Assembly (NCBI GenBank): GCA_900320185.1
Contig: ONRD01000015.1
Span: 1 to 49,535 of the forward strand
Origin: an uncultured Bacteroidales bacterium
GTDB taxonomy: Bacteria; Bacteroidota; Bacteroidia; Bacteroidales; UBA932
Length of the DNA: 49,535 bases
Direction of reading: 5' to 3'
Part shown: positions 7,760 to 47,741 of the stretch, piece by piece
How positions within the stretch are numbered: the stretch's first letter is position 1
How the letters are laid out: each line of letters opens with the position of its first letter
The notes under the pieces: model-generated
Database searches by the model: none
Told to the model about the DNA's origin: nothing
The model's input: only the letters and a program-made list of their open reading frames with translations
Position numbers and translations under genes: made by a program

Positions 7760-7833
7760 GGTTCCGTAGCTCAGCTGGATAGAGCAACAGCCTTCTAAGC
7801 TGTGGGTCTTGGGTTCGAATCCCAACGGAATCA
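7760..7833 (+). tRNA. tRNA-Arg (anticodon TCT)
   Basis: A full cloverleaf of 74 bases. The acceptor stem GGTTCCG pairs with CGGAATC (one G-U) with discriminator A at 7833. The D arm is GCTC-AGCTGGAT-GAGC. The anticodon arm ACAGC-CTTCTAA-GCTGT has TCT at 7794-7796. The T arm is TTGGG-TTCGAAT-CCCAA. The 3' CCA is not encoded. The UCU anticodon reads AGA and AGG codons. Confidence 0.97.
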
Positions 7834-32529: not shown

Positions 32530-32770
32530 TTGACGGAGCATTTGTTACGTTTGATTATCGAGGGAACTTTGGTTGTGTTTGTTTGTTGTATTTGACTGTC
32601 GAGGTAACTTTGGTTGTGTTTGATTGTTGTGTTTGATTATCGAGGGAACTTTGGTTGTGTTTGATTATAGACGTAGCTTTCGATGTGTTCGATTGTTGAC
32701 GGAGCATTTGTTACGTTTGTGTATCGAGGGATCTTTGGTTGTGTTTGATTATAGACGTAGCTCGCTGTGC
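32530..32770. repeat. degenerate tandem repeat, about 28- or 41-base unit
   Basis: Seven or so units share the pattern CGAGGGAACTTTGGTTGTG then TTTGATTAT. Clear copies of the CGAGG core begin at 32559, 32600, 32641 and 32725, with degenerate versions (GACGGAGCATTTGTTACG) at 32532 and about 32696. T- and G-rich on this strand. No open gene fits. Confidence 0.75.
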
Positions 32771-32855
32771 TTGTGGATACCCTCTTATCTATCTTCCGGC
32801 ATGGAACCATACACCATCATACGGTTTAGGACCATCGGCTATCGCAGGGATAGCC

Positions 32856-33026
32856 TTTTTCAAATAGCTAACACGCCTCGAAAAGATAAGGGCTTCATTA
32901 TTAGCGTATTACAAATTGGCAGCGTGTGAAGGTAGCCCGAAATCAGCTCCACTTAACACGCTCGCAAAACCTAAAATATTGATTAGCAGTCGTTTCCGGA
33001 AACGAAGCGTGTGAGCTATTTGAAAA
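32856..33026 (+). repeat. terminal-inverted-repeat element, copy A (171 bases)
   Basis: Left end TTTTCAAATAGCTAACACGC and right end GCGTGTGAGCTATTTGAAAA are inverted copies with one mismatch. The interior contains AAAAGATA, GCTTCATTATTAGC, TATTACAAA and CAGCGTGTGAAGGT, which recur in the same order in copy B (45876-46045, opposite strand). Outward on the minus strand it carries TTTG-N23-TATCTTTT (32915 to 32881), promoter-like. No reading frame of note and no obvious target-site duplication. Confidence 0.8.
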
Positions 33027-33051
33027 CTGTAGTGCGCTGACTCGCCTTGAA

Positions 33052-33207
33052 ATAGGTTCACCGAATCCGTGAGTTGGAGGGTCAGGACTATAACGGTACT
33101 GGTATAGGTTTACCGATGCTGAACAATTAATAGTTAGGACATTGAACGTCCTGACATAGGTTTACTGATGCTGGACAATTAACAATCTGGGCATTGAAGT
33201 CTGAAAC
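33052..33207. repeat. three 52-base tandem units
   Basis: Units start at 33052, 33104 and 33156, each opening ATAGGTT(C/T)AC. Units 2 and 3 are closely similar (GATGCTG, ACAATTAA, GGCATTGAA-like blocks), unit 1 is diverged; a partial fourth (AGGTCTTC) follows at about 33208. Confidence 0.8.
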
Positions 33208-33294
33208 AGGTCTTCGATGATGTCGGAGAGATACAACTTTTCGTGACATTATTGTAGCCCGCACTGTGGATGACCTGGGCCCCCGGCGGGGGCA

Positions 33295-33420
33295 GAGTCA
33301 TTGATAAATCTGAGTTCCTGCGGTTGCCCTTGTCAACTTTTTCAAATAGCCAACACGTCCCGCCCTATAAAGATAAATAACCCTTTACTAATGCGTTACA
33401 ATCCATCAGCATATTAAAGG
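33295..33420 (+). repeat. terminal-inverted-repeat element, copy C (left half with flank)
   Basis: TTTTTCAAATAGCCAACACG at 33338 starts a region matching the left half of copy A through to about 33420 (GTTACAATCCATCAGC), where a 66-base tandem array begins. TTG-N23-TATCTTTA is kept on the minus strand (33401 to 33368). The 43 bases before it (GAGTCATTGATAAAT, CTGCGGTTGCCCTTGTCAAC) match the flank of copy B. Confidence 0.75.
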
Positions 33421-33421
33421 C

Positions 33422-33658
33422 GCAACTGGTACGGCCGGCTATTTCAATTCCACCTACAGGTCTTTCTGTGCCTTGGCTTTGGCTTCTGCAACTGGTAGTG
33501 GCGGCTATTTCAATTCCACCTGCAGGTCTTTCTGTGCCTTGGCTTTGGCTTCTGCAACTGGTAGTGGCGGCTATTTCAATTCCACCTGCAGGTCTTTCTA
33601 TGCCTAGGCTTTGGCTTCTGTAACTGGTACGGCCGGCTATTTCAATTCCACCTGCAGG
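33422..33658. repeat. 66-base tandem array (3.6 units) running into the 3' end of the propeller gene
   Basis: Units start at 33422, 33488, 33554 and 33620. Each contains CTATTTCAATTCCACCTGCA, which in the fourth unit is the stop codon and last codons (QVELK) of the minus-strand gene ending at 33637. Units 2 and 3 differ at only two positions. Confidence 0.92.
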
Positions 33659-45570: not shown

Positions 45571-45745
45571 CCAGCGTGGATGGCTCGGGGGTTCAGCGGG
45601 GGCCCCAGGTAACGCTCTAGGCTCGGGCTCCAGGCGGGGCTGTCCACAAAAACCGGCCTCCAGCGTGGATGGCTCGGGCAGACCGTCACTGAGCGAAGGC
45701 AGTCATTCAGAGCGACCTTGTCATTCAGAGCGAAGCGAAGAATCT
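45571..45745. repeat. cluster of interspersed intergenic repeats
   Basis: CCAGCGTGGATGGCTCGGG occurs at 45571-45589 and, as part of the longer TCCACAAAAAC...GTGGATGGCTCGGG motif, at 45643-45678; a relative lies at 13386. Two copies of TCATTCAGAGCGA start at 45703 and 45721; the second extends through AGCGAAGAATCT, a motif known as an intergenic repeat in many bacteria. Confidence 0.7.
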
Positions 45746-45830
45746 ACCCGGCATGGGCCTGTTTGGCAAACATTCCTTGTACCGACCAACGAGGGGGGGC
45801 GAACTCTTTGATGAATCAACGACGGGAGCG

Positions 45831-46045
45831 GAGTCATCGATGAATATGGTATCTGCGGTTGCCCTGGTCAACTTTTTTTCAAATAGCTCACACGCTTGGT
45901 TTTTGCAATAGATTGTAAATCAATGTATTAATTTTCGTTAACGTGATAGGTGGGCCGTATTTTGAGGGACCTTCACACGCTGTCGTTTTGTAATATGCTA
46001 ATAATGAAGCATCTATCTTTTTAGGGTGTGTTAGCTATTTGAAAA
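45831..46045 (-). repeat. terminal-inverted-repeat element, copy B with flank
   Basis: The element proper is 45876-46045 (170 bases), bounded by TTTTCAAATAGCTCACACGC and its inverted copy ending TAGCTATTTGAAAA. Its interior is the reverse complement of copy A, with blocks GCTTCATTATTAGC, CAGCGTGTGAAGGT and AAGCGTGTGAGCTATTTG. TTTTG-N23-TATCTTTT (45986-46021) points right, toward 46756. The left flank (45831-45873, GAGTCATCGATGAAT, CTGCGGTTGCCC) matches that of copy C. Confidence 0.8.
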
Positions 46046-46164
46046 TGTGGGGTAAACAAAGGACGGCTTCTCCACCACCTCTTACCCCAAGGTGTGCATG
46101 GAAGCCGCTTATGTAGCCCTTTCAGGATGGCCCCGAAACACTTGGACATAAAACGAAAAGACTG

Positions 46165-46495
46165 GGGATTTGGCCGGTGGGGAATCTGGACGGCACTGGG
46201 GACTTCGGCAGGCAAGGGGAATTCAACCGGCTGGGGGACCTGGACGGCCAGGGGGACTTCGGCAGGCACGGGGGATTTGGCCGGCCTGGCAGGATTTGGC
46301 GGGGGCGGTATTCAGCCGGAGGGCCAGGGGGACTTCGGCCGGCAAGGGGAATTCAACCGGCTGAAGAATCTGTACGGCCAGGGGGACCTTGGCCGGCACG
46401 GGGGAATCTGGACGGCCAGGGGGACTTCGGCAGGCAAGGGGGATTCGGCCGGTCGAGCCGGGATTCGGCCGGCTAGGGGGATTTGGCCGTCCGGG
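46165..46495. repeat. 18-base minisatellite (about 16 degenerate units)
   Basis: Units follow a pattern like GACTTCGGCAGGCAAGGG, GAATTCAACCGGCTGGGG, GACCTGGACGGCCAGGGG. Because 18 is a multiple of three, several frames stay open and would read hexapeptides such as GDFGRQ, but no ribosome site or plausible N-terminus is seen, so I do not call a gene. Confidence 0.8.
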
Positions 46496-46524
46496 GGAAT
46501 ATCCCTAACTTAGCATCCGGCATC

Positions 46525-46690
46525 ACCGCGGCTTCCGAGCTACTGAGGCGGCATCGCTTCCATAATACGGCGGCGGCAGCGCTTCCGAACTGAGGCGGCA
46601 TCGCTTCCGAACTGAGGCGGCATCGCTTCCGAGCTACGGCGGCGGCATCGCTTCCGAACTGAGGCGGCGGCGCTTCCGAGCGGCGGCGGC
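46525..46690. repeat. 22-25-base minisatellite (seven units)
   Basis: Units begin CTTCCGA and run AACTGAGGCGGCATCG, with variants AGCTACGGCGGCGGCATCG. It lies directly after the 18-base array but has an unrelated sequence. Just beyond it (46700-46735) an AT-rich stretch repeats ATGTATCATAG. Confidence 0.8.
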
Positions 46691-46755
46691 AGCATTTTCA
46701 TGGATACATCATGGATGTATCATAGATGTATCATAGATATATAAACAAGGAAGAT

Positions 46756-47483: not shown

Positions 47484-47741
47484 CGGTGCCGGGCCCGGTG
47501 CATGTCAGCGGCAGGGCGCAGGCCGGAGCGGGACGCCTAGCGTGGGTCGTCTTCGGGCTCGGACGTGGTGCCAGGCGCGGGCTCGGTGCATGTCAGCGGC
47601 AGGGCGCAGGCCGGAGCGGGACGCCTAGCGTGGGTCGTCTTCGGGCTCGGACGTGGCACCGGGCGCGGGCTCAGTGCATGTCAGCGGCAGGGCGCAGGCC
47701 GGAGCGGGACGCCTAGCGTGGGTCGTCTTCGGGCTCGGGCG
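47484..47741. repeat. 88-base tandem array (three units) running into the 3' end of rmuC
   Basis: The block GCCTAGCGTGGGTCGTCTTC recurs with its CTA at 47537, 47625 and 47713, exactly 88 bases apart. The last CTA is the rmuC stop (TAG on the minus strand) and the following bases encode PEPEDDPR. Each unit also holds GTGCATGTCAGCGGCAGGGC. Confidence 0.93.

Follow-up and report, generated by a model that had tools for sequence, protein, structure and literature searches.

TIRtrons and TIRYTs are RAYT-like HUH/tyrosine genes with flanking long inverted repeats (PMC3733652; this and the other cited papers are drawn on as excerpts). Their repeats include some moderately abundant families, and are arranged singly, as dimers or in groups. 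The best-defined TIRYT group belongs to Acidobacteria; the same source names GGGGWSAS as a shared TIR motif and gives GTAG as the foot of canonical REPs (PMC3733652). Two subclasses of TnpA_REP are also relevant here. Subclass 2.1 (Bertels group 1) consists of long RAYTs with a C-terminal extension, and according to the excerpted text no REP-like sequences were found near its genes; subclass 2.6, from Bacteroidetes, has a median length of 179 aa and the tyrosine motif YIH[QN]NP, and its genes lie between unusual secondary structures that recur at other places in the genome (PMC6006769). TnpA_REP proteins are described as co-evolving with their cognate REPs in two groups (PMC8266576). BrickBuilt, an intergenic MITE of Porphyromonas gingivalis with inverted ends and 19 copies in one strain, is built on a 23-nt minisatellite, and promoter activity has been reported for it (PMC4596501).

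The window, the whole 49,535-nucleotide stretch of DNA that was analysed, contains two complete copies (A and B) and one half copy (C) of an element that we interpret, with considerable confidence, as a REPIN-like non-autonomous element that a divergent RAYT would mobilise in trans. The computed basis for this interpretation comprises homology, the layout and number of the copies, their closeness to RAYT genes in relatives, conservation of HxH and tyrosine, and the lack of an excess of target-site duplications. In relatives, as in TIRtrons and TIRYTs, long inverted repeats belonging to families stand on either side of a RAYT-like gene, but a layout of four sites with conserved AT-rich cores and a changing motif is not described in the excerpts of PMC3733652. 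The elements resemble REPINs (PMC8049555, excerpted) in pairing inverted repeats, in being present in many copies and in their tie to a RAYT gene that occurs once. Like BrickBuilt, they are intergenic repeated elements with inverted ends, but the excerpts on BrickBuilt give it a minisatellite base and name no RAYT. In the literature searched (open-licence PMC papers), no description of the four-site layout was recognised.

A repeat family in the window's genome

The window's genome is a 2.28-Mb draft in 49 contigs. A BLASTN search of it with copy A gave 88 pieces at E ≤ 1, of which 27 were at least 85 bases long. A 17-base word from the terminal inverted repeat (TIR) was found at 57 places with up to two mismatches, whereas the reversed control word was found at none, so the family is not a product of chance. 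Forty of these 57 sites pair into 20 complete copies, with 166 bp between motif ends in 17 pairs, 167 bp in two and 168 bp in one; of the sites left unpaired, several are located where a contig ends. The family is therefore larger than the three copies of the original prediction, which had proposed a search of the full genome. Its description of the copies in the window was borne out: A and B are real elements of 170 bp each, with inverted arms of 24 nt (92% complementary) in A and 18 nt (94%) in B, and C is a left half only (Table 1).

Table 1. Features of the element copies and their flanks in the window
Feature	Position	Strand	Basis or remark
Copy A, complete element, 170 bp	32857..33026	+	BLASTN, inverted arms, TIR word, alignment
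A, left terminal inverted repeat, holds S site 1	32857..32876	+	
A, stretch with the TTG-N23-TATCTTT pair	32881..32917	-	conserved, not above other motifs
A, blocks of the pair	32881-32890; 32909-32917		AAAAGATAAG; TTACAAATT (both given on +)
A, internal S site 2	32922..32932	+	GCGTGTGAAGG
A, internal S site 3, inverted	32949..32961	+	
A, right terminal inverted repeat, holds S site 4	33007..33026	+	
Alpha flank module beside A	32795..32856	.	borders by eye
Delta flank module beside A	33027..33090	.	borders by eye
Copy C, left half only	33338..33420	+	match 33296-33401; TIR word, 1 mismatch, 33341
Beta flank module beside C	33296..33337	.	match 33296-33401
Copy B, complete element, 170 bp	45876..46045	-	BLASTN, inverted arms, TIR word, alignment
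B, left terminal inverted repeat (element orientation)	46026..46045	-	
B, internal S site 2	45970..45980	-	
B, internal S site 3, inverted and decayed	45942..45953	-	
B, right terminal inverted repeat (element orientation)	45876..45895	-	
Beta flank module beside B	45817..45875	.	match 45817-45895
Gamma flank beside B	46048..46131	+	75% identity over 85 bases to TPR gene, contig C22 (L010:1673-1756)

Nineteen of the 20 complete copies were aligned (alignment A1, leaving out L019 and the contig-end and partial copies). The alignment is almost free of indels, with a mean column identity of 83%. In L019 (1508-1677, contig C14), the left half is replaced by what resembles an inverted right half, so the halves of the element seem exchangeable.

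Phage and plasmid records contained no match. Elsewhere, the TIR word was found in three genome contigs, judged to be chance matches from the number expected alone, and in one viral contig, in whose last 590 bases no second site was seen.

Conserved blocks and the promoter question

The original prediction had stated that the pair TTG-N23-TATCTTT is preserved in all three copies, and had taken this to suggest selection on an outward promoter or a transcribed RNA. The pair is exact in A and B but in only 12 of the 19 A1 copies (C lies outside A1), and hence is not invariant in the family. Across these copies, conservation is 96% for the TATCTTTT block, equal to the TIRs (96%) and below the first internal motif (98%), and 87% for the TTTG block, compared with 86% for the spacer between the blocks. 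By the comparison that the prediction itself had put forward, of the blocks with the rest of the element, TTTG fares no better than its surroundings, and TATCTTTT is matched by several other conserved blocks. That 23 bases always separate the two is a consequence of the element as a whole being nearly indel-free, and in the seven aligned relatives TATCTTT is, by eye, not kept. Since the two blocks do not stand out from the other motifs, selection for a promoter was rejected; with TATCTTTT among the well-kept blocks, a promoter retains a small probability.

A regulatory element maintained for the host, either as an outward promoter or as a transcribed structured RNA, would account for the near-constant length and the well-kept TATCTTTT block as well as for the copies with an exact pair. 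We consider it very unlikely, because the blocks are unremarkable among the motifs, Rfam gave no match at the elements, and double changes occurred in only 2 of 25 predicted base pairs. The only Rfam match in the window is a tRNA gene at 7760-7833.

The inverted ends could alternatively be the recombination sites of an invertible promoter segment, and the motif pair presumably resembles the Bacteroidetes promoter consensus. We give this virtually no credence, given the dozens of dispersed copies, the ends that belong to a four-site quasi-palindrome and the inexact pair in the remaining A1 copies. Neither the promoter nor the invertible-promoter reading is supported.

Element anatomy, folding and insertion sites

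A motif S (GCGTGTKA in the window's genome) occurs four times per element in alternating orientation, at the left end, at two internal positions and at the right end; the internal pair was absent from the original prediction. With this alternation the element consists of two units, in each of which an AT-rich core is enclosed by inverted repeats. The spacing of the S sites is about 45-22-45 in the common register, with 24 instead of 22 in the window's genome.

Single-strand folding gave z-scores of −4.4 for A (0 of 200 dinucleotide shuffles as good), −3.9 for B (1 of 200) and −7.7 for an element of the relative G078 (0 of 200). As in a REPIN/RAYT system, the repeat is palindromic and is predicted to fold as single-stranded DNA. 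Examined by eye, the palindrome foot has GTGG at some sites, but GT[AG]G is inconstant, for which reason we call the elements REPIN-like and not canonical REPINs. They differ from REPINs also in having four S sites and AT-rich cores of about 45 bases. Canonical REPs are shorter than these elements.

No excess of target-site duplications was observed in 20 copies from the window's genome and 13 from G132. Matches of 4 bases between flanks occurred in at most 2 of the 20 own copies, compared with 1 in the control, and none reached 6 bases. Transposition by HUH enzymes is expected to leave no target duplication, and the result agrees with that expectation.

A comparison of G078 stretches with G075 yielded no clean empty site. 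In the C32 dimer, a stop codon is followed after 3 bases by the element, and the G075 gene is without an element; the opposite side is rearranged. The flanks of the single units on C32 and C47 fail to align cleanly. Near a G078 element, blocks that have their syntenic counterparts in G075 are each inverted individually (L182 compared with L184).

Related elements in the same genus

Sequence A alone had no match in 60 relatives, and the TIR word, at one to two mismatches, matched in 6 of 40 same-genus genomes, which is chance level, as the reversed control matched in 10 of 40. With a sequence profile of A1, G075 and G078 each yielded several elements, and G019, G021, G045 and G056 one weak match apiece, of which only that in G021 was accepted as an element. 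A second profile, built from seven relatives and five own copies, matched in 26 of 151 same-genus genomes (25 besides our own), a count that includes unchecked weak, near-threshold matches in several genomes.

The relatives share the layout of four S sites that alternate in orientation and enclose AT-rich cores, at a spacing of about 45-22-45, but differ in the S word. The word is TGGAAGG in G078, G075 and the dispersed elements of G132, TGCGCAAA in G175, and GGTTCC-AAC in G189 and G104, with further words elsewhere. The likeness of the motifs is 6.9/8 within elements, compared with 2.3/8 between genomes; the four sites were picked by likeness within set distances, which inflates the former value and bounds the lengths. 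The picking gave a result in 27 of 28 regions, at lengths of 132-152 bases, with own_B, G021_5, G024_5 and G024_3 scoring at most 30 or falling in another register, and G130_RAYT (30) and G021_3 (30) likewise low-scoring or out of register. Single-unit forms are also present in G078.

A divergent RAYT transposase

The search for transposases in the window's genome covered RAYT homologues only, and by profile and homology search it revealed a single RAYT gene, located outside the window on contig C27:25481-26353 (-). Genes beside or between the elements of relatives encode proteins of about 285-300 aa with an HxH motif and a tyrosine in a Y..RN context. Both are invariant in 10 of 10 proteins, in keeping with a HUH motif and a catalytic tyrosine. 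Nine of the ten match NF047646 (REP_Tyr_transpos, NCBIfam; best 4.7e-8) and five match Pfam Y1_Tnp (best 0.015), in both cases below the curated cut-offs; our own RAYT matches neither family.

The own gene matches the G021 RAYT at 3.5e-22. Three relatives found with the profile were tested against the families. L186, from another family, passes the curated cut-offs of both Y1_Tnp and NF047646; L185, from the same genus, passes that of Y1_Tnp; and L188 passes neither, with an NF047646 match at 5.5e-14. At the level of sequence, a firm chain of homology leads from the predicted own protein to the RAYT families.

The RAYT profile matched in 12 of 198 genomes sampled across the order, the two same-genus matches over the full length and the other ten over the catalytic part, with one reaching further. 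A search of viral contigs with the profile gave 39 pattern stretches and no relative, and a PDB profile search gave one irrelevant match (E 0.48).

As in subclass 2.1, the proteins are long, with what would be a C-terminal extension; their C-terminal part, too, aligns with L186, which passes the RAYT cut-offs. No HTH family was matched, and for this reason we would place the own RAYT near subclass 2.1 only by inference. A further difference is the REP-like sequences, which the excerpts of PMC6006769 report as absent near subclass 2.1 genes. Subclass 2.6 is alike in its structured flanking repeats, but differs, as excerpted, from our longer proteins with their Y..RN context. The apparently subclass-2.1-like long RAYTs studied here accompany populous, regularly built repeat families, where PMC6006769 in its excerpted part reports none.

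Linkage of elements to RAYT genes

We examined 70 elements outside our own genome, all found by element sequence and blind to the RAYT gene. The distance to a RAYT is no more than 300 bp for at least 13 of them, spread over at least 10 of the 25 genomes (expected 0.37), and no more than 2.5 kb for at least 20 (expected 1.4). The expected numbers take every RAYT into account, and elements that pair up at the same gene are not independent of each other. In G021, G024 and G186, elements lie on both sides of the RAYT gene, so that relatives have the TIRtron/TIRYT arrangement of a RAYT-like gene flanked by family-forming long inverted repeats.

A RAYT gene linked to copies of the repeat, as in REPIN/RAYT systems, was found in our own genome as well as in relatives. 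On one side the nearest own copy is about 0.58 kb away from the end of the gene, and on the other side it is 1.05 kb away from where the profile match begins, looser than the 4-260 bp of relatives. These two copies, although quasi-palindromic, are in direct orientation and are near-identical to each other, so local duplication is a possible explanation for the pair.

The presence of RAYT genes beside elements bears on the MITE-like origin, one of the two that the original prediction had offered. The elements are indeed multicopy, non-autonomous and lineage-specific and have inverted ends, but the likely mobiliser is a HUH/tyrosine RAYT instead of a DDE enzyme, and the excess of target duplications is lacking. 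A classical MITE, derived by deletion from an insertion sequence whose DDE transposase acts on the 20-bp inverted ends, would suit those ends, the length of about 170 bp and the many dispersed copies. However, the ends of relatives vary with S while the inner layout is constant, and RAYT genes adjoin the elements; together with the insertion-site results, this leaves a classical MITE decidedly unlikely.

Pairs of sites were also counted around RAYT genes. Pairs of 65-69 bases numbered 23 within 350 bp of a RAYT, compared with 10 at 350-1500 bp. Shorter pairs (50-64 bases) numbered 17 and 22, respectively, although the nearer zone spans one-third as much sequence; part of the excess is therefore due to base composition. 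A pair of 62-76 bases lies near 21 of 30 RAYT loci, some by chance, and the own locus has none. Nine of the 30 loci reach 22/24, where shuffles reach at most 20.

In G132, the units on either side of the best RAYT are TGTTAACC-like, whereas the 15 dispersed elements of that genome carry TGGAAGGT; another of its five RAYTs may serve the dispersed elements. G013 has two weak element matches and no RAYT match. Across 16 cases, RAYT identity correlated with motif likeness (Mantel r 0.22, p 0.019; for G130, one of the S sites was blank), but r fell to −0.16 when pairs above 60% identity were left out. Co-evolution of RAYT and motif was rejected as a finding, as the correlation arises through close pairs only.

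We propose that the quasi-palindromic element would fold as single-stranded DNA into stems formed by the four S copies. The RAYT would recognise S plus the fold, its tyrosine would cut beside the foot, and the enzyme would move or copy the element to a new place without a target duplication. Cutting, copying and S recognition by the RAYT are what we infer here from the observations above. Different RAYT lineages would use different S words on one scaffold, of about 45-22-45 with AT-rich cores.

A wider proposal, to which we assign an even chance, is that RAYTs of about 290 aa diversified within one genus together with a modular element whose scaffold is constant and whose address word, about 8 bases long, is exchangeable, that they built private repeat populations, and that the elements of our genome carried a piece of a host gene. 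In this proposal the private population of each transposase follows from the exchangeable word. RAYT genes matching the profile are present in 126 of 151 same-genus genomes, at up to 14 each, and with the differing S words this makes the genus a series for studying joint change of transposase and word. It is also a ready case for the question of whether such elements move pieces of host genes.

Flank modules and a TPR gene piece

The own copies sit, by eye, among four recurring flank modules, designated alpha, beta, gamma and delta, in several combinations. The original prediction had not mentioned these modules, among them one that consists of part of a TPR gene. Assignment by pattern of 51 element ends gave 9 gamma, 9 beta, 8 alpha and 11 delta. 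Copies are also found in unshared flanks, for example in L012 and L021. In L029 (431-478, contig C31), two terminal repeats stand head to head without an interior, between flanks of delta and alpha type, an arrangement that resembles an internal deletion.

Such recurring flanks, together with the four regularly spaced sites, might be expected of static protein-binding or cruciform sites, similar to BIMEs, that spread by recombination and gene conversion along with repeat-rich surroundings. The copies in unshared flanks argue against this, and it leaves the linkage to RAYT in relatives unexplained; we regard it as highly improbable.

Gamma is a fragment of the reading frame of a TPR protein on contig C22. 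Eleven gamma ends, chosen for gamma likeness (the 9 assigned by pattern and 2 by eye), align with the C22 TPR gene at 75-89% identity, and 8 of the 11 align over 76-85 bases with recurring borders. The source seems to be positions ~628-712 of L196 (C22:52500-53900), within a predicted in-frame TPR gene. The TPR piece beside 11 element ends suggests that flanking DNA was carried along with a REPIN-like element. Recombination between copies could also have spread gamma, but carriage with the element is the likelier route.

The spacers around A, B and C are packed with tandem arrays (32550-32762, 33084-33211, 33422-33658, 46164-46691 and 47490-47738) having periods of 28-41, 52, 66, 18-130 and 88 bases. 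At 45702-45733, GTCATTCAGAGCGA occurs twice, 18 bases apart, and resembles a repeat in the beta flank modules.
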